Source: Spiroplasma corruscae
GTDB taxonomy: Bacteria > Bacillota_I > Bacilli_A > Mycoplasmatales > Mycoplasmataceae
Direction of reading: 5' to 3'
Length of the DNA: 64,000 nt
Assembly: GCF_002237575.1 (NCBI RefSeq)
Contig: NZ_CP022535.1
Span: 186,001-250,000 of the forward strand
Shown here: positions 21,412 through 58,397 of the stretch, piece after piece
How the letters are laid out: each line of letters opens with the position of its first letter
How positions within the stretch are numbered: position 1 is the stretch's first letter
Position numbers and translations under genes: made by a program
The notes under the pieces: model-generated
Database searches by the model: none
Seen by the model: the letters and a program-made list of their open reading frames with translations, nothing else
What the model was told of the DNA's origin: nothing

Positions 21412-23055
21412 ATGAAAAAATTGCAAACCTTAAAGAACATGATAACTAGTGGAGTTAATAATATTTATAATAATTATCCTAAAATTGATAAACTAAATGT
21501 TTTTCCAGTTCCAGACGGAGATACAGGAACAAATATGAATTTAACCTGTACAAATGGTTTAGCCGAAATAGAAGATGTAAACTTTGAAAATGCTTATGAG
21601 TTAATGTCAAAATTTTCAAGAGGTTTAATAATGGGAGCCAGAGGAAATTCTGGTGTAATTTTTTCACAAATAATTAAAGGATTCTCAGTAGGATTTAAAG
21701 TTGATGATAGTCAATCTGTTGCTTCTTGAAAAAATGCGTTTAAAAATGCAAAAGAGGTAGCGTATAGTGCTGTTATGAAACCTGTTGAAGGTACAATTTT
21801 AACAGTAATTAGAGAAACTAGTGATGCAGTCAATTTATTAGAAGATAATTTAAAAATAGAAGATTTTTGATTAAATGTAATAAAAGCTTCTAAACAATCA
21901 TTAGATAAAACACCTGAATTACTTCCAGTTCTTAAAGAAGTTGGTGTAGTTGATAGTGGTGGATATGGGTTAGTTAAGTTTTTTGAAGGAATGGAAAACT
22001 ACATTCGAGTAGGTAAGATAATAACAAGAACAAAAAAACTTGAAGAAAATACAGGTAATAATATCGAACTTGATAATATTGATGAGTTTGGTTATTGTAC
22101 TGAAGCAATAGTTAACCTAATGGATGATTATATTGATTCTTTAAATGTTGATGTTGTTAGAAGTACATTAGAAGGATATGGTAATACTTCAATAGTTGTT
22201 GTAACTGATTCTGATATTCTAAAAATACATACACATGCTCTTATGCCTGGACAAGTTTTGACTTTCTTGCAACAATATGGAGAATTTAAGTCTATAAAAG
22301 TAGAAAATATGACTTTACAAGCAGAAAAACATACAACTGCAAAAGCTAAGAAAAACTCTTTAATCAATGATAATGATAGAAAAAGAGAGTTAAAAAACGA
22401 AATAGCATCAATTTCAGTTGCTAGATCAAAAGGTATCGCTGATTATTTTAAAGAACAATTAGTTATTGATTATGTTATTAATGCAGGTTCTAAAATGAAC
22501 CCTTCAACAAATGATTTTTTAGAGGCAATAGAAAAAGTCGATGCAAAAACTGTTTATATATTCCCAAATGACTCAAATGTCTTACTAGCAGCTAAACAGG
22601 CAAAAGATTTAGAAAAACATTCAAAGGTTGTTGTTATTGAAACAACAACAATACCCGAAGGAATAACAGCTTATTTAAATTTAGACCCAGATGAGACAAT
22701 CAAAAAAAATGAGTCTTCTATTAATAAAGCATTAAAAAATGTTACTTCAATCGCTGTTAATAAAGCAGCGAGAGATGCAAAAATTGATAATGTTGAGATT
22801 AAGAAAAATCAATATATGGCATTGGTTAATAGAAAAGTTGCAATTGCTACTGATAATTTAAATGAAACATTAACAAAAGTGTTATCAAAAAATATAAACT
22901 CTAAAACAGAGATTTTAACTATCTTTACAGGTATTGATGCAACTTATAAAGATGTTAGTAATTTAAGAAAATATCTTGATGAAAATTTTGACGTTGAATA
23001 TGAATTAGTAGATGGTGGACAAGAAGTGTATACTTTTATCATAGGTATTGAATAA
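21412..23055 (+). CDS. fakA: FakA/DhaL-type fatty acid kinase subunit
   Basis: 547 residues. The N-terminal DhaL (DAK2) kinase domain binds ATP and Mg through FPVPDGDTGTNMNLT (31-45) and GARGNSGVIFSQI; the helix pair around VMKPVEGTILTVIRE is also typical. A linker and C-terminal region (YCTEAIV ... TDSDILKIHTHAL, then VINAGSKMNPSTNDFLEAI ... ) match YloV/FakA. With a FakB (DegV-fold) protein, FakA phosphorylates exogenous fatty acids, feeding PlsX/PlsY; no fakB is in this window but plsX is 4.7 kb downstream. TGA Trp codons at 21728 and 21868 join the two parts. Confidence 0.93.
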
Positions 23056-23067
23056 AATAGGTGAAAT

Positions 23068-23562
23068 ATGAAAGAAATAGTATTAGGTGCTGGCTGTTTT
23101 TGGGGAACACAAGCATTTTTTGATAGGATAAAAGGTGTAAAATCAACTTTAGTTGGCTATGCTAATGGTAATTTAGATAACGTTACTTATGAACAAGTAT
23201 GTAAAGGAAACACTGGTTTTATTGAAGTATGTAAAATAAGTTTTGATGAAGGTATATTAAATCTTAATACAATATTAGAAAAGTTCTTTAGAATCATTGA
23301 CCCAACAATTGAAAACCGACAAGGTAATGATTTTGGAACACAGTATCAATCTGCAATATTTTATAATTTAATGGATAAGGATGAATTTGTTCCAGTTATA
23401 AATAGTTTTTTTAATAGTGTAAAAAGTAACTATAATAACGAAATAAAAACTAGAGTTGATGTTCTAAAAAACTTTGTTAAAGCCGAAGAGTATCATCAAA
23501 AATATTTAGATAAAAACCCAAGTGGATATTGTCATATTGATCTTAATAAAGCTAATGATTAA
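23068..23562 (+). CDS. msrA: Peptide methionine sulfoxide reductase MsrA
   Basis: 164 residues. Reduces Met-S-sulfoxide in proteins. Catalytic GCFWGTQAFF (C10), VGYANG, YEQVCKGNTGFIEV, and the substrate-binding DPTIENRQGNDFGTQYQSAIFY. The C-terminal HIDLNKAND keeps HIDLN but lacks the recycling Cys found in longer forms. Its Trp codon is TGG, so both Trp codons are used here. Starts 12 nt after fakA with a weak AGGTG site. Confidence 0.97.
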   Translation: MKEIVLGAGCFWGTQAFFDRIKGVKSTLVGYANGNLDNVTYEQVCKGNTGFIEVCKISFDEGILNLNTILEKFFRIIDPTIENRQGNDFGTQYQSAIFYNLMDKDEFVPVINSFFNSVKSNYNNEIKTRVDVLKNFVKAEEYHQKYLDKNPSGYCHIDLNKAND

Positions 23563-23588: not shown

Positions 23589-26500
23589 ATGAAAAATATT
23601 TTAAAGTCATATTTTAAGTTATTTATAAAGTTATGAGTGGAAACAATTGGTGTAATTGCATTTTTAACAATTTTTACTATGCTTGTAGTAGGTATGTTAG
23701 CAACGCCATTACAGTTAACTATGAAAACAAGTAGTATTGAAAATAAAACAAATTTATGAAACCAACAAAGACAAACTATTCCAGCTCTAACAAATGATTT
23801 TATAAATAATTACTTTATTAACTACGATGTTAATACCGATAAAGAAATTAAACTAAATAACGAAAATTATTCTATAACTATAAACACCCCTGAAGGTGGT
23901 TTTTTTACTAAGGATTCATTAACTAGAATTGAAGAGTATGCTGAGTATTCAAAGACACATGATGCTAAATATTTTTGTGAAGAAACAAGTGTAGGTAATG
24001 AAAATCAAGATTGTATTAATGAGTTTGTAGAGTCATCTAAAATAGATCTTGCAAGAAGTTTAATTGATTCTTTTTATTATTATGGAGATGAGCATAGTCT
24101 AACAATTGCTGATGGTAGTGATATTGAACCATTACTTGTAAAAGATATTTTTACTAATAATGGAAGTTGATTAAATATTAATAATTGATCAACAAGAAGT
24201 GTAGAAGATTTTATAATTTACAACATTATAAAAAACATTGATGATGATAAAATGGATTATAATTCTTTTATGAATGTTGTTTATAATGAACCAATACAGG
24301 GAACTGAAAATCAATCATACGAGTTTCTTTTAACTTCATCAACAAGTCTTGAATATGATTATCAAACTTTGAATAATTTAATTTTAGAGGATATCAATAG
24401 CAGACTACCAGAAATAAATTCAGAGGTAGTGGTAAGTGATAGTTATGCAAAAAACTTTAATAAAAAAATTGGTGATGAGATAGAGATAAAAGGTAAAAAC
24501 TTTAAAATAGTAGGTTTTGGTAATAAGTATTCAACTTTAACACCAACATACTATTCTCCTTTTAGTACTTCAATTGAAAATTATGTACAAGTGTATATGA
24601 AAAATAGTTTTTTTTATGAAACAAATGATAGTTATTCTTTTAAAAATCTTTTCCTAACAAATAACTTTGAAACTAGTAATATAAGTGGAAAAATGTTTAG
24701 ATATTATTATGAAAATTATGTAAATTTTAATGATAATAATATTAATTTAAACAATCTACTAACAAATTATATTGAAAATGGTAAACCTTCTTTAGAAAAT
24801 GAGTTAAAAGGCACATCAATATTTTCACCAGGAGCTAGTCCCTTTAAAGATATTTCACAACACAAAAATATTAGTGAACTTAATAATTTATTTATTATGA
24901 CCTATATTTATTTAGCTATAGGAGTTATACTTTTTGTATTAGGTTTTTGTTTTGTGATATTTATTTTAAAAAAAGAAATAAACAATACAAGAAATCAATT
25001 AGGGGTTTTTAAAGCACTAGGTTATAGAACAAATCAGTTAACCTGAATATTTGCTCTAAAAAATTTTGTATCTATGTCAATTTCTATTATTATTGGATAT
25101 TTATTGTCATTTCCATTTCAAATAGATTCTGCAGAAAAACAGTTTAAATCATTGGTAACATTTAAGTTCGATTATATTTATCATGATCCAATATTTATAA
25201 TTCTTCTTGTAGTGTTAATACCATTAACATTCTCACTATTCGCTTACTTTATAATATTTAGGGTCTTAAATGCAAGTGCGTTAGATTTAATTCAAAAACA
25301 GACTAAACGTAATAAGAAAAGCTATTTTATTCTTTCGTTGCAAGTTTTATTCTTTCCATTTTTAATATTTACATTAATAAATTACTTGATTTTGAATTAT
25401 TCAAAAAAATATAATAAGTGATTCTCTTTTAAACTTCAAAATGCATTTGTGAGTGATAATAAAGGAAAGTTTTTATTAATTGTTTCATTATTTGGTATAA
25501 GTGCATTCTTATTTACAACTCAGCTTAAAGCAATCCCGGTTCTTAAAAATATGTTTGAATCTGGATATAATATATATAACAAAGATGTAAATCATTACTA
25601 TAATTTTAGAAAAGTTAATAATGTGAAGTATTCAGATAGTGGATTAATGAGAAACAATATTTTACCTGATTATAAAATTTCATATAGTGACATTGAAGAG
25701 GATAAAGAAAAATATATAAAAGAAAATATATTATATAGTGGAAAAATATCATTACTAGCAGATTCAATATCAAATTTTAGAAATAAAGTACTTAATAATG
25801 AAGATTTAAAAGAGTATAAAGCATATTTAAATATTCTTTGCAATACCACATTTTTAATGTATCCTTTAAACTTCGATGATACTAGTATAGATGTTGAAAA
25901 ATGAATAAAAGAAAATCTACTTCCATTATTATTAACAAGTGATGAAAACGAAATAAAAGAGAAAGTTGACAAAATATTAATATCTAGTCCTAACTTATTA
26001 ACCATTAAACCAATCGAAGGTGATAAAAATACAGGTATATATACAAATGATATTGCAAAATATGTTTGTGTTTCACTACCTGATTATAATGGTGATTGTA
26101 ATAACGTCAATGAATTTAGAACTTATGCAAAGAATATAAATAATAAAACTAGTTTTAACAATTTTAATGAACAAGCTAACACTAATGAGCAGTTTCCAGT
26201 TATTAGTACAGCATTAAGGGATTGGATATCTGCTTTTATATTAAGTGATAGTTCAATCAACCCTTTTATAGCCGCTAATAAAGTACTCTTTGATAAGCAA
26301 AGAGAATTACTTACATTAAACCTTAAATTTTTTGTAGAAAATAATCAAGATGTAGATGTAACTGGAGCAAATATAATTCTTACTGATACAAATAATAATT
26401 ATGGTAATCCTAAAATTATTTTTAACTGATCTTCAATAAGTGATGATGCATATAAAAGTCTATTGGAAGATAATAAAAATTATACAAATGGACTAATATC

Positions 26501-27425
26501 TTATAGGTTATCAAGATTATTAAATTTAGGTGTCGGTGACACTTTTGAAATAAATGTTGGTCAAACTACGCATAAAGAATTAATTAAAGTATCTGGTATT
26601 ATTGATGACAATACATTATTAGAAGAAATATATGTTGATTATAATGTGATGATGAATAAAGTTGGTAAATCTATTATTTCTAATAGAGTAGTATTTTCTA
26701 ATTTGTATAGCACAATGGATGCTAGTGAAGGTGAGATTGATTTAACTAATATAAGAAAATCAATAGATACTTTTAAAAATAAAAGAGATCTATTCTCATA
26801 TGCTTCTACTACTAAAAAGCCCTGATTAGCTTCTAATCTAGATCTTTACTTAAATCAAATATCAAAAACAAGTAATAGTTCTAATTCTATATTTGATAAT
26901 TTAAAGAAAGCAGCAAAATATATTAATGATAATTATTTGGAAGCACCGTATAACCAATCATTCTTTATTAATCCTGGAGTAATAACTTTACCAATATTAA
27001 AAGAGTTAATTGATAGTATATTGGGTGAAGTACAAAAATCATTACTTACTTATGTAATAATAGACATATTCTTACTCACAATTCTATTAATAGTTTTAAT
27101 GAATGTAATAATTAATGATGCAATAAATATAATTACTGTTATGAGATCAATGGGTTATACTAACAAAAAAATTAATTGAATGATAATGGGAAAATATATA
27201 GTCTACTCCTTTATTGGGTTTTTAATCGGCTACGGAATGTCCGTTGTGTTATGATATTTAATACAGTACATTGTTTGAATGAAATTCAAAGTTGCAGTTA
27301 TAATACCAACTTTAGTTTGGATACCATTTGTCTCGGCAATAGTTCTTGGTACCATATTATATATAGGGTGACTTGCAGCAACAATCCAGATTAAGAAAAA
27401 ACCACTAACATTGCTAATAACATAA
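23589..27425 (+). CDS. Large FtsX-type ABC transporter permease
   Basis: 1,278 residues. A first membrane helix near residues 16-40 (WVETIGVIAFLTIFTMLVVGMLA) is followed by a large extracellular region of ~390 residues containing a MacB/FtsX-like subdomain (VVVSDSYAKNFNKKIGDEIEIKG). A block of several helices (about 430-460, 490-515, 530-560, 580-605, 625-645) starts with the FtsX signature KKEINNTRNQLGVFKALGYRTNQLTW. A second extracellular region and a second FtsX block (VMRSMGYTNKKINW near residue 1190) end the protein. This is a duplicated permease of the lipoprotein/peptide-export type. No ATPase adjoins it. It needs many TGA-Trp codons to stay open. The ATG at 23589 is the only start that stays in frame. 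Confidence 0.88.
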
Positions 27426-27459
27426 AAATTGTTTAAAATCTTATAAAGGAGATATATAT

Positions 27460-27675
27460 ATGCCATTACCTAAGAATAGTTCGTCATCTAATGATGCTTG
27501 TTGTCCTGGAGGAGCACATAATTGCTACACTTGTAGAGTTTGTAGTGGATCATTTCATGGCTGTAAAAGTTGTATGAAATGTATTAGTTGTGTAGTTTGT
27601 TATGAAAAAAAATGTCCATGTTGTATCGATGGTAGCTCAAAACAAAAGGAAAATAAAGCAAAATATAACAAATAG
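27460..27675 (+). CDS. Small cysteine-rich protein with CxxC periodicity
   Basis: 71 residues, 13 of them Cys. After a Ser-rich start (MPLPKNSSSSNDACCPGG) come C-x2-C-x2-C, then five Cys spaced exactly three apart (GCKSCMKCISCVVC), then KKCPCC. The tail is Lys-rich and hydrophilic. There is no signal peptide, and the region is too polar for a membrane segment. It has a strong AAAGGAGA site 7-8 nt before the ATG, its own terminator, and lies 34 nt after the giant FtsX permease, so it is clearly a maintained gene. A metal (Zn/Cu/Fe-S) binding role or an exported peptide substrate are possible; neither is shown. No family recognised. Confidence 0.85.
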   Translation: MPLPKNSSSSNDACCPGGAHNCYTCRVCSGSFHGCKSCMKCISCVVCYEKKCPCCIDGSSKQKENKAKYNK

Positions 27676-27677
27676 AT

Positions 27678-27705
27678 AAAAACAATGTTTAAACATTGTT
27701 TTTTT
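27678..27705 (+). terminator. Terminator after the Cys-rich gene
   Basis: Perfect palindrome AAACAATGTTTAAACATTGTTT, flanked by A and T runs and ending in T7. Confidence 0.9.
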
Positions 27706-27747: not shown

Positions 27748-28755
27748 ATGTGCTATAAAATAATTGCATTTGATGTTATGGGTTCAGATAATGGCCTTAT
27801 ACCAGCTATAGAAGCAACGGTTCAAATATTAAAGGAAATAAATGATTTAAAAGTTATACTTGTTGGTGACCAAGAAGAAATAAAGAAAATTCTTCAAAAC
27901 CTTAAATATAACTCAGATAGAATAGAGATTGTTAACACTACTCAAGTTATTAATATGAACGATGGTATATTAGAATTTAGAAGAAAAAAAGATTCAAGTA
28001 TGGTGAGGGCGATTGAATTAGTTAATGAAGATAAAGCGGATGCTATTGTTACTGGAGGAGCAACAGCTCCCTTTATTGCCGCTTCTCATTTTATTTTAAA
28101 AGAAATGAAAGGTGTATCAAGGCCGGCATTTATGCCAGTTATACCCACTATTATAAAAGATAAGGTAACCTTATTATTAGATGTTGGTGCTAATATTGAA
28201 TGTGATATAAATGATTTAACAACTTTTGCTATTTTAGCAAGCGCATATTCAAAAGTTATTAATAAAATTAATGAACCACTAGTTGGTTTATTAAATGTAG
28301 GGGAAGAAAAAACAAAAGGACAGGAACTTCATAAGGAAACTTACGTAGAGTTAGAAAAAAATAAAAAGATTAATTTTTATGGAAACATTGAGGCTAGATA
28401 TATTACATCAGGATATGTTGACATAATTGTAACTGATGGTTATAGTGGAAATATTGCATTAAAATCTGCTGAAGGAATGGGAAAAAACTTACTAAACGAA
28501 ATTAAATCAGCTTTAACAAAAAATATTTTTAGAAAGTTGGCTGCCTTAAGATTAAGAAAAGCTTTTAAAGAAGTATCTGCAAAATTTGATTATAAAAACC
28601 ATTCAGGTGCATTATTAATTGGTCTAAATAAAATTGCATTTAAGTCTCACGGTTCAAGCGATAAAAGATCATTTTATGGCACATTAAAAATGACATATAA
28701 TGCCATTAAAAATGATGTTGTAAATAAATTGAAAGAAGTATTAAAAAATGAATAG
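27748..28755 (+). CDS. plsX: Phosphate acyltransferase PlsX
   Basis: 335 residues. It makes acyl-phosphate, the acyl donor for PlsY in phospholipid synthesis. Family marks: IAFDVMGSDNGLIPAIEA; DGILEFRRKKDSSMVRAIEL; DAIVTGGATAPFIAASHFIL; PAFMPVIPT; LLDVGANIE; GLLNVGEEKTKGQELHKETY; NFYGNIEARYI; DIIVTDGYSGNIALKSAEG. Small changes stand out: the N-terminal GGD of other PlsX reads GSDNG, and the usual SAGNTGA reads TGGATAP. Overlaps rnc by 8 nt. Confidence 0.95.
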   Translation: MCYKIIAFDVMGSDNGLIPAIEATVQILKEINDLKVILVGDQEEIKKILQNLKYNSDRIEIVNTTQVINMNDGILEFRRKKDSSMVRAIELVNEDKADAIVTGGATAPFIAASHFILKEMKGVSRPAFMPVIPTIIKDKVTLLLDVGANIECDINDLTTFAILASAYSKVINKINEPLVGLLNVGEEKTKGQELHKETYVELEKNKKINFYGNIEARYITSGYVDIIVTDGYSGNIALKSAEGMGKNLLNEIKSALTKNIFRKLAALRLRKAFKEVSAKFDYKNHSGALLIGLNKIAFKSHGSSDKRSFYGTLKMTYNAIKNDVVNKLKEVLKNE

Positions 28756-53797: not shown

Positions 53798-54541
53798 ATG
53801 CACAAATTAGAAATAAAAAATTTATATGTAAATATTGAAGATAAAGAAATACTAAAAGGGGTAGATTTAACCATTAACACCGGTGAAATACATGCCTTAA
53901 TGGGACCGAATGGTAATGGTAAATCAACATTATTGATGTCAATAATGGGTCACCCAAAATATGAAATTATCTCTGGGGATATATTAATTGATGGTAAGTC
54001 TATTTTAGAATTGCCAGTTGATGAAAGAAGTAAATTGGGGTTGTTTTTAGCAATGCAAAACCCTCAGGTTATACCAGGGGTTACAAATTTAGAATTTTTA
54101 AAATACATTGTAAACGCACATAAAGACAAACCTCAAAAACTTAAAGAAATATATAAAGATATTAAAGATCAAGCTGAAGAATTGAAGTTTGATTTACACA
54201 TGTTAAAGAGATTTGTTAACGATGGATTTAGTGGTGGTGAGAAGAAAAAAAATGAAATACTTCAACTTAAAATGCTTAACCCAATATTTAGTTTAATTGA
54301 TGAAATTGATTCAGGGCTTGATGTGGATGCTTTAGAAGTTGTAGCTCAAAATTTAAACTCAATAGACTTATCAAAAAGTGCATTAGTTCTTGTATCACAT
54401 TATGACAGATTCTTTAAAAAAGTTGTACCAACTCACGCTCATGTAATTATTGATGGAAGAATTGTTTTGAGTGGAGGTAATGAATTGGTTGAGAGAGTTA
54501 ATAATGAAGGTTACTCATGAGTTAAGGAATTAAACAAATAA
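53798..54541 (+). CDS. sufC: Fe-S cluster assembly ATPase SufC
   Basis: 247 residues. ABC-type ATPase: Walker A GPNGNGKST (from residue 36), FLAMQNPQVIPGVTNLEFLKY (SufC-type Q-loop), signature FSGGEKKKNEILQL, Walker B IFSLIDEIDSGLDVDAL, H-loop LVSHYDRFF. Works with SufB and SufD in the SufBCD scaffold. AAAGGA site. First gene of sufCDSUB, coupled by overlaps; TAATG into sufD. Confidence 0.98.
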
Positions 54542-55320
54542 TGAAAAAAGATTTTACAAATAATAATGTAAACTTTATTGATTTACGTAACTCAAGAGTT
54601 GAAAAAGTTGAAATTACAACTGAAGATGAATATTTAATATATTTAGAAGAAATTAATAATAATATCAATTTTAATTTTAAAGAAGATATTGTGGTAAAAG
54701 TAACGTTAGTTTTCTTTAATTCTAATAAGAAAATCAATAATATTAACTATAATATTAATTTTAATTTAGAATACAGTACTAAATTAAATCTTTATATTGC
54801 AAATCTTGGTAACTATAATGTTAATGAAGTTTTAAAAATTAACTTATTAAAAGAATATGCTAGAGTAGAATTCTATTCAGCGACAATTGTTAATAAAGAT
54901 TTTGACAAGAACACAGTTGTTCAAGTTGAACATTTAGCAAGAAATACTTATTCAAATATAAAAGTATATTATGTATTAAAAGATACTTCAAAAGGATTTG
55001 TAAGATGTATTAGTAACATATTAAAAGGTTCATCAGGGTCTGAAGCACATCAAGAACTAAGGTTATTATTATTAGATGAAAAAGTAAAAGCAAACTCTGA
55101 TCCAGTTTTATTAATTGATGAGAACGATATTGTTGCAAGTCATGCTAATGCAATTGGTATGCTAGACCCAGACCAAGTATTTTATTTATTATCAAGAGGT
55201 TTAGATAAATCATCTGCTCAAGAGTTAATAATAAATGGTTACTTTACACCAATATTTAATAATATTAGTAATGAAGAGCTGAATAACAAATTATGAGAAG
55301 TTTTAAAAGGAATGATTTAA
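54541..55320 (+). CDS. sufD: SufD-like Fe-S assembly protein, short form
   Basis: 259 residues, far below the ~430 of Bacillus SufD. The C-terminal beta-helix and helical end are recognisable: LRLLLLDEKVKANSDPVLLIDENDIVASHANAIGMLDPDQVFYLLSRGLDKSSAQELIINGYFTPI, equal to the SufB/SufD HxxxxG...YLxSRG motif. The N-terminal part (~100 residues) is strand-rich but poorly conserved. In SufBC2D, SufD pairs with SufB. Position between sufC and sufS supports the call. ATG and TAA overlap both neighbours. Confidence 0.9.
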
Positions 55321-56534
55321 TGAACTACAAAAACCTTTTCTCTTATTTCAAGAATAACGTAGAAGAAATATATTTTGATTCTGCTGCAACTTCAATAAAG
55401 TTCGACGAAGTTATCAAAGCACAATCCGAGTATGATTTAATTTATGCTGCAAACGCACATAACAATTTATTTAAAAACGCTTTTTTATCTAATCAAATGA
55501 TTATTGATACAAGGATTAAAATAAAAAATTTTATTAATGCTACAGATGAAAAAGAAGTAATTTTTACAAGCGGCACTACTTATTCACTAAATCAGCTAGC
55601 CTTTGGTCTAAAACCATATATAAAGGAAAATGATGAAATATTATTAACAGAACTTGAACATTCTTCAAATTTGTTACCTTGAATGGTTGTTGCCAAAGAA
55701 AAGAAAGCACAGATAAAATATTTAGCACTAAATAATGATTATAGTATTGATGAAACAAATTTAATTAATCAACTTAATAAGAATGTTAAGGTTATAAGTT
55801 TTGCGGTTAATTCTAACACGCTTGCTATAAAAAATAATGTTGAAAGAATTGTAGAAGTAGTTAAAACATATAATAAAAATATTTTAGTAATATTAGATTT
55901 AGCACAATCAATAATACATTGTAAAACAGATGTTGCTAATTGAAATGTTGACGCCATAGCATTTTCAACACATAAAATGTTTGGACCATTTGGATTAGGT
56001 GTACTATGAGCTAAAAAAGATCTATTAAATAGTATAGAACCATTATTGTATGGTGGTGGAAATAATATTGATATAAAAAAAAATGATTATAAATTAGCAC
56101 AAATACCAGAAAAGTTTGAAAGTGGAACTTTAAATTTAAGTGCAATATATGCCTTCAATAAATGTTTAGATATAATTAATGAAATTGGTTTAGATAACTT
56201 AATTGAGTATCCTAAAACATTGAAAGATTACTTTAGAAATAATATAAACGATATTATTAAATCAAAGTTTAAGTTTTATAATTTAGAAAATGAAGAACCT
56301 ATTATTCTATTTAATTTAATTAATGTTAATTCACAAGATTTTGGCGCTTTTCTAAATAAAAAATACAATATTTCAGTAAGGGTTGGTAAACATTGTGCTA
56401 GATTAACAACAAATGTTATTGGAGCACATTCAACAATTAGAATAAGTCTTTCAATATATAATACAAAAGAGGATATTGACATACTTATTAAAGCATTATT
56501 GGATTATGATAGTTGAATCGAAGAAATGATATAG
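55320..56534 (+). CDS. sufS: Cysteine desulfurase SufS
   Basis: 404 residues, PLP-dependent class-V aminotransferase fold; removes sulfur from Cys for Fe-S clusters. PLP site: FSTHKMFGPFGLGVLW with Lys219. Substrate contacts: FDSAATSIKFDEVI, FTSGTTYSLNQLAFG, LLTELEHSSNLLPW, LDLAQSIIHCKTDV. Active-site Cys: RVGKHCAR (C359). Overlaps the sufD stop (TAATG); sufU follows 13 nt later. Confidence 0.97.
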
Positions 56535-56547
56535 TTAGGATAAAAAA

Positions 56548-56985
56548 ATGATTGATAAAAATGACAAAATATTGTTAAGACAAATTATCATGGAACACTA
56601 CACAGAACCAGATAATAAAAAATTGATTAATGATAGCAATTCCATAATACAAAAGCAAGATTCTCCAACTTGTAGTGATGAAATTGATGTGCAAATCCTA
56701 TTTAACAACGATTTAATTATCAATTGTCGATTTGATGGCACTGCCTGCGCAATCGCAACTGCTGCAGCTGATATTTTATGCAATGGGTTAAAAAATCTTA
56801 ATCTTAAAAAATCATTGGAATATTTAAATAATTACCATAGTTTAATAACCGGAGAGAAATATGATGAATCATTATTAGAAGAATTAATAGTTTTTTCTGA
56901 CATATTTAAACAAGGAAATAGGTTAAATTGTGCTTTATTAGCAGCTGATGGTTTTAAAAAAATAATAATGAATGAGGTTAAATAA
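56548..56985 (+). CDS. sufU: SufU zinc-dependent sulfurtransferase
   Basis: 145 residues, IscU-like fold. Zinc/sulfur ligands: SPTCSDEIDVQI (C42, D44), FDGTACAIATAAADIL (C67) and NRLNCALLAADG (third Cys). In Gram-positives SufU accepts the persulfide from SufS. The 18-20-residue insertion that marks SufU versus IscU is present between the second and third Cys. Coupled to sufB by the overlap TAATG. Confidence 0.95.
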   Translation: MIDKNDKILLRQIIMEHYTEPDNKKLINDSNSIIQKQDSPTCSDEIDVQILFNNDLIINCRFDGTACAIATAAADILCNGLKNLNLKKSLEYLNNYHSLITGEKYDESLLEELIVFSDIFKQGNRLNCALLAADGFKKIIMNEVK

Positions 56986-58397
56986 TGAAAAAATTAAAAC
57001 AAGAAAAAGAAATAAAAGAAATTTCAAATTATAAATATGGATTTAATGAAGGGGAGCTTTCTTCTTTTAAAGTGGAAAAAGGAATCAACAAAGAAATAGT
57101 TACACAAATTTCTAAGTATAAAAACGAACCCCAATGAATGTTGGATTATCGTCTAAAAAGCTTAGAGCTGTTTGATAATTTTGATCAACCTAGTTTTGGA
57201 CCTGATTTAAGTTGAATTAATTTTAATGATTACTATTACTATACAGAGGGTAGTGAAAATATTTCAAATAATTGAGACGATGTTCCTGCAAATATTAAAA
57301 AAACATTTGAAAGACTTGGTATTCCAGAAGCCGAAAAAGAATTTTTACTTGGAATAAATGCGCAATGAGATGCTAAGCCGGTCTATGAAAACTTAAATAA
57401 AGAATTAATTAGTCAAGGTGTTATATTCACTGATTGTGATACAGCACTAAAAAAATATCCAGAAATATTTAAGAAGTATTTTGGTACTTTAGTAAAAAAT
57501 GATGATAATAAATATGCAGCTCTTAACTCAACAGTCTGAAGTGGAGGTACCTTTATATATGTACCAAGTGGAGTAAAATTATCAAAACCATTGCAGGCCT
57601 ATTTTAGAATTAACTATCAACTATCTGGACAATTTGAGAGAACTTTAATAATAGTCGAAGATGACGCTCAATTGCATTACATAGAAGGGTGTACAGCACC
57701 AGTTTATTCAAAGAATAATTTACATGCAGCAATAGTTGAAATATTTGTAGGAAAGAGATCTAGTGTTAGATATACAACTGTGCAAAATTGAAGTGATAAT
57801 GTATTAAACTTAGTTACAAAAAGAAGTTTAGTAGATGATGATGGAAGAATGGAATGAATTGACGGTAATATTGGGTCAAAAATTAATATGAAATACCCGT
57901 CTTGTATTTTAAAAGGTAATCGGTCACAAGGAGATACCATTTCAATTGCAGTAGCAAAAAACGGCGTTTATCAAGATGCTGGAAGCAAAATGATTCATTT
58001 AGGAAAAGATACAAAATCTAAAATAGTTTCTAAATCAATAACCTTTCAAGGAGGAACAGCAAATTACAGAGGTTTAGCATACATTGGACCAGATGCAATT
58101 AATTCAAAGGCTAGAGTAGAGTGTGATACTTTAATTTTAGATAATAAATCACATTCTGATACAATACCACAAAACAAAGTACATAATAATAAATCACAAA
58201 TAGAACATGAAGCTACTGTATCAAAAGTTAGTGAAGAACAATTATTTTATCTAATGTCTAGGGGTTTAACAGAACAACAAGCATTAGAAATTATAGTAAT
58301 GGGATTTTTAGAGCCATTTACAAAGGAATTACCATTGGAGTATGCTGTGGAATTAAATCAATTAATTAAAATGGATATGGAAGGTTCCGTAGGATAA
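56985..58397 (+). CDS. sufB: Fe-S assembly protein SufB
   Basis: 470 residues, full length. Family marks: [18 protein letters not shown] near the start; [44 protein letters not shown] with the conserved Cys; [43 protein letters not shown]. Scaffold on which clusters form together with SufC and SufD. Last gene of the suf operon. TGA-Trp codons at e.g. 57136 and 57214. Confidence 0.98.

Follow-up and report, generated by a model that had tools for sequence, protein, structure and literature searches.

The window, a stretch of 64,000 nucleotides from Spiroplasma corruscae, carries a short open reading frame (ORF) encoding a cysteine-rich mini-protein. The features considered here are as follows.

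21412-23055, + strand: fakA (fatty acid kinase A), a conserved upstream neighbor
23068-23562, + strand: msrA
23589-27425, + strand: FtsX/MacB-like permease, 1278 aa, 34 bp upstream of the mini-protein ORF
27445-27451, + strand: ribosome-binding site AAAGGAG, 8 nt 5' of the ATG
27460-27675, + strand: Cys-rich mini-protein ORF, 71 aa with 13 Cys
27680-27705, + strand: hairpin with T-run 3' of the stop codon, intrinsic-terminator-like, -6.5 kcal/mol
27748-28755, + strand: plsX, the next downstream gene
53798-58397, + strand: genes for SUF Fe-S assembly, not adjacent to the mini-protein

The cysteines of the 71-aa product lie at positions 14, 15, 22, 25, 28, 35, 38, 41, 44, 47, 52, 54, and 55, giving the core motif CCPxxxHxCxxCRxCx6CxSCxxCIxCxxCx4CxCC, which is followed by a basic tail; the segment from C35 to C47 is an exact CxxCxxCxxCxxC. 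The cysteine count, this block, and the ribosome-binding site had all been reported by a first-pass annotation of the DNA and were confirmed in the ORF, and most homologs are preceded by a similar ribosome-binding site. The terminator proposed in the same annotation is present as a hairpin with a T-run, but it is absent from the output of a stricter terminator consensus scan; a 3' hairpin below -3 was found at 14 of 31 homologs.

Cysteine makes up 0.73% of residues in the 59 long ORFs of the window (143 of 19,558), and the single-frame binomial probability of at least 13 cysteines among 71 residues is 7 × 10−15. Among the 137 ATG-initiated ORFs of at least 40 aa in the window, two minus-strand frames reach 15 to 20% Cys; cysteine richness is therefore insufficient as proof of a gene, and gene status rests on conservation. 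A lack of homologs, or of conserved Cys positions among them, had been named as what would count against the gene; relatives were found in 36 of the 60 genomes of the family, and the Cys columns are kept across 31 homologs. Together with the dN/dS values given below, these results prove that the ORF is a real gene.

To map the distribution of the gene, which is present in a single copy in its own genome, we used tblastn at the family and order levels. Beyond the 36 positive genomes of the family, only one more was detected in the order (37 of 320), a genome of another family designated G306. All 20 genomes of the window's own genus (g1) carry the gene, as do the single genomes of g4, g5, and g6 and 13 of the 14 genomes of g8, referred to here as the citri clade, which includes Spiroplasma phoeniceum and presumably S. 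melliferum. The same search found no homolog in g9 (0/3), g7 (0/7), or g2, g3, g10, g11, and g12 (0/13 combined). A profile built from 24 members matched 16 of 395 genomes in a class-level sample and 33 of 392 in a phylum-level sample, all of the same family except G306. In a scan of genome contigs only S. phoeniceum gave a match, phages and viral contigs gave none, and plasmids gave one, in S. citri. This last match, an unannotated homolog of the shorter type described below (form B), lies near the fibril gene fib on the 123-kb "plasmid" NZ_CP047429.1 (L070:5001-5123), and is flanked by phosphatase and endonuclease IV genes in an order similar to that on the chromosomes of other citri-clade genomes.

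Two forms of the mini-protein can be distinguished: form A, of 62 to 72 aa, carries a conserved basic tail (GSxRQQENKxKYxK), and form B, of 49 aa and found in the citri clade, lacks it. In an alignment of 31 extracted homologs, ten Cys and Pro16, His20, Arg26, Ser37, and Ile42 are identical in every row; Cys38 and Cys47 are each retained in 30 rows and Cys54 in 27. The array is the same throughout, with 11 to 13 Cys per homolog. The mini-protein is under purifying selection, with dN/dS values of 0.03 to 0.21 in 13 of 14 homolog pairs and an outlying value of 0.44 (G015-A/G306). Form B copies in G021, G025, and G026 (L130, L127, and L128) appear damaged, which makes form B dispensable in some species; in G020 (L187), ispG is present and form B is gone. 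All the damaged, fused, or lost copies of form B belong to a single clade, in which the remaining copies are conserved. G306 and G021 share, at 88% identity, a 1.6-kb segment (L048:8988-10552; L131:3938-5509) that encodes form A together with a membrane protein of 275 aa; this membrane protein, as encoded in G306, has no Pfam match. The identity points to a recent horizontal transfer of form A.

The surroundings of the gene differ between clades. An FtsX permease lies directly upstream in all 20 genomes of the window's genus (19 within 68 bp and one at 405 bp), where the two genes probably share one transcript. The first-pass annotation had proposed a test of synteny with the FtsX gene; the synteny holds throughout the genus but fails in three other genera, which have no FtsX beside the mini-protein: in g4, g5, and g6 the order is fakA, mini-protein, plsX, with one 172-aa ORF before plsX in g4. 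The permease in the window matches Pfam FtsX twice and MacB_PCD; no ATPase gene lies beside it. Giant FtsX-like permeases match in every one of the 60 family genomes, whether or not the mini-protein is present, and reach 13 matches per genome. The next gene downstream, plsX, probably forms a separate transcription unit; it lies within 200 bp 3' of the mini-protein in 14 of 20 genus members and has moved or split off in 6. In the sampled genomes of g9, g2, g3, g7, and g10 to g12, plsX is in place and has no mini-protein homolog beside it. A redox link through msrA, which the first-pass annotation had placed in the same run, was rejected because, of the 20 genus members, only three (the window genome, G037, and G046) have msrA at the locus.

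In the citri clade, form B lies within 200 bp 3' of ispG (GcpE) in 11 of the 13 genomes that have it, G017 being included by coordinates with a broken ispG; the distance is 1.2 kb in G026 and about 6 kb in G021. By eye, TATGTTATAAT is found between ispG and form B in G014, G016, G019, and G027, which may mean that form B is transcribed from a promoter of its own. In G015 (L052), ispG and form B make up one open reading frame. We did not use this fusion as evidence, since it depends on a single-base difference in the length of an A-run and may thus be recent or an assembly error.

The distribution of the mini-protein was compared with that of Fe-S metabolism across the family. The MEP pathway, ispG included, is carried by S. 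melliferum, according to PMC3563533. In the window, two SUFBD_core matches in G000 fall at about 54.7 to 55.2 kb and 57.6 to 58.3 kb, and the other suf genes of the block were recognized by eye. Of the 60 family genomes, 39 encode both SUF and IspG and 38 encode IspH. Ferredoxin matched with E no worse than 0.011 in all but one of the 39 SUF-positive genomes; flavodoxin matched at E ≤ 0.1 in 2 of 60, one of them over the cutoff. Of the 39 genomes with SUF and IspG, 35 also carry the mini-protein, as does 1 of the 21 in which neither was found. That one, G006, is 85% complete, and searches of it returned no SUF, IspG, IspH, or ferredoxin. The three g9 genomes (L183, L184, and L185) keep SUF, IspG, IspH, and ferredoxin without the mini-protein, which makes them a natural comparison for its role. 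On a PlsX+Rnc tree covering 40 of the 60 family genomes (G028, G031, and G044, whose plsX lay outside the stretch taken, and 17 unsampled genomes are left out), both traits change three times, giving only two or three independent pairs. The shared distribution is not significant on this basis, and we rejected it as proof of an Fe-S link, because with at most two or three independent contrasts the association may reflect shared ancestry alone. A role as sole electron donor to IspG and IspH was likewise rejected: of the 39 SUF-positive genomes, 38 have an ordinary ferredoxin, and the three g9 genomes without the mini-protein are among these.

The first-pass annotation recognized no family, and the searches bore this out. 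None of the 24 members matched Pfam or NCBIfam at E ≤ 1, and 1 of 24 matched PHROGs (E = 0.71). Searches of the PDB by sequence gave nothing beyond chance; the profile search returned only viscotoxins and one kinase (E of 0.81 to 4.6), with no relation to a solved metallothionein. The profile PF02069, which we take to represent the SmtA/BmtA-type bacterial metallothioneins, matched none of the 24 members at E ≤ 1, nor the query protein alone. An AlphaFold model of form A was of middling confidence (mean pLDDT, 66.8) and gave no Foldseek hits; that of form B (mean pLDDT, 58.2) was too weak for a fold search, and neither model has metal-site geometry. Among the papers listed on Spiroplasma together with cysteine-rich proteins, metallothionein, FtsX, or iron-sulfur/ferredoxin, titles and abstract openings do not describe the gene.

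We favor, with moderate confidence and from sequence evidence, a spiroplasma-specific cytosolic multi-zinc thiolate mini-protein that acts as a metal buffer or donor. The mollicute cytosol is reducing, and mollicutes have, to our knowledge, no classic disulfide machinery. Given this cytosol, a polar N terminus, and no export gene among the named neighbors, the cysteines would most likely stay reduced and bind metal. Cys at CxxC spacing and a conserved His make up a ligand set common for zinc, and the 12 near-invariant Cys (Cys54 being variable) and His20 are compatible with binding several Zn or Cd ions. The metal-binding role raised by the first-pass annotation fits this pattern. Bacterial metallothioneins bind about 3 to 4 Zn through Cys and His, as described in PMC10612145. 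By our model, the chain would fold with about three to four Zn(II) bound by the 12 Cys and His20, and the mini-protein would hold zinc, buffer it, or donate it. G006, 85% complete, keeps the mini-protein although its SUF, IspG, IspH, and ferredoxin were not found, which favors a metal independent of Fe-S assembly. A stand-alone housekeeping role suits a gene whose neighbors vary by clade (FtsX, fakA/plsX, or ispG). Several observations count against the zinc reading: the distribution follows the Fe-S/MEP genes in 35 of 39 genomes, CxxCxxC is also a classic [4Fe-4S] motif, and no zinc-linked genes were found adjoining the mini-protein. The invariant non-Cys residues and the basic tail of form A exceed the needs of a simple buffer.

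The mini-protein could instead be a new Fe-S protein, a small multi-cluster carrier of electrons or clusters for IspG/IspH and other spiroplasma Fe-S enzymes, which we judge unlikely. The proximity of form B to ispG in the citri clade, the 35 of 39 versus 1 of 21 distribution, and the division of twelve near-invariant Cys into three sets of four all point this way. They are offset by the ordinary mono-cluster ferredoxin already present in nearly all SUF-positive genomes, by the occurrence of IspG without the mini-protein in the three g9 genomes and G020, by the 85%-complete G006, and by G306, which has an 11-Cys copy and lacks IspG; in addition, the co-distribution is not significant, no CxxCxxCxxxCP motif is present, and no Fer4 profile in Pfam matches at E ≤ 1. 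The Fe-S cofactor carrier suggested by the first-pass annotation thus has circumstantial support in the ispG neighbor and the shared distribution and is not required by the data. A structural zinc mini-protein, serving as an FtsX partner or regulatory subunit or, through its basic tail, binding nucleic acid or membrane, is slightly less likely still. The permease is directly upstream in all 20 genus members although plsX has moved or split off in 6, and the tail of form A is conserved and basic; however, three genera carry form A without an adjoining FtsX, form B has no tail, and FtsX-like permeases occur in every family genome regardless of the mini-protein. We consider quite unlikely a new class of small multi-cluster metal/Fe-S carriers that would serve IspG/IspH and lipid-membrane enzymes in wall-less bacteria and whose coupling would be to FtsX or to ispG, depending on the clade.

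Many Cys in a short chain suit Cu(I) clusters, and with its 13 Cys the mini-protein could be a thiolate protein that binds Cu(I) to store or detoxify copper; the His is invariant and the CxxC spacing fixed, however, features more typical of zinc, and no copper gene is among the named neighbors, making this reading improbable. The exported peptide also raised by the first-pass annotation found no support, and the precursor of a modified, bacteriocin-like one is highly improbable. Heterocycloanthracin precursors do share Cys-Xaa-Xaa repeats and a similar length; according to PMC2674419, their repeat number varies between strains and a cyclodehydratase is encoded in the genome. The Cys array of the mini-protein is instead constant over deep divergence (the same in 31 homologs), the Pro, His, Arg, Ser, and Ile within the Cys block are invariant, the N terminus is short and polar by eye, and no cyclodehydratase, dehydrogenase, scaffold, or other processing gene occurs among the named neighbors.

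Spiroplasmas are wall-less bacteria of insects and plants, and most of the very reduced spiroplasma genomes examined keep this unannotated, strongly constrained gene of 49 to 72 aa. Its coupling to FtsX (20/20) and to ispG (11/13) offers direct, testable partners. If its metal were defined, bacteria whose metal biology is little known would gain a minimal example of a metal buffer or Fe-S carrier, and genome pipelines equipped with a model of the family could call an easily missed gene.

Compared with known systems, the mini-protein resembles small [4Fe-4S] ferredoxins in size, in its CxxCxxC spacing, and in genome distribution, but it has 13 rather than about 4 Cys, no CxxC..CP motif, and a different sequence; the same genomes carry both the mini-protein and a spiroplasma ferredoxin of 59 to 83 aa (ten ferredoxin loci read). 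It shares a count of 13 Cys with the copper storage protein Csp1; Csp1 and Csp3, however, are four-helix bundles of roughly 120 aa with CxxxC, whereas the mini-protein has 49 to 72 aa with CxxC and no family match. Like the heterocycloanthracin precursors described in PMC2674419, it is a short ORF with Cys-Xaa-Xaa repeats; unlike them, it has no leader/repeat split and no maturation genes among its named neighbors. In its short length, very high Cys content, few aromatics, conserved His, and expected 3 to 4 Zn, it resembles the bacterial metallothioneins. These have a mixed CxC pattern, whereas the mini-protein has CxxC arrays and a CCP start; moreover, its non-Cys residues are unusually conserved, and among the genomes searched it is restricted to one family and G306.
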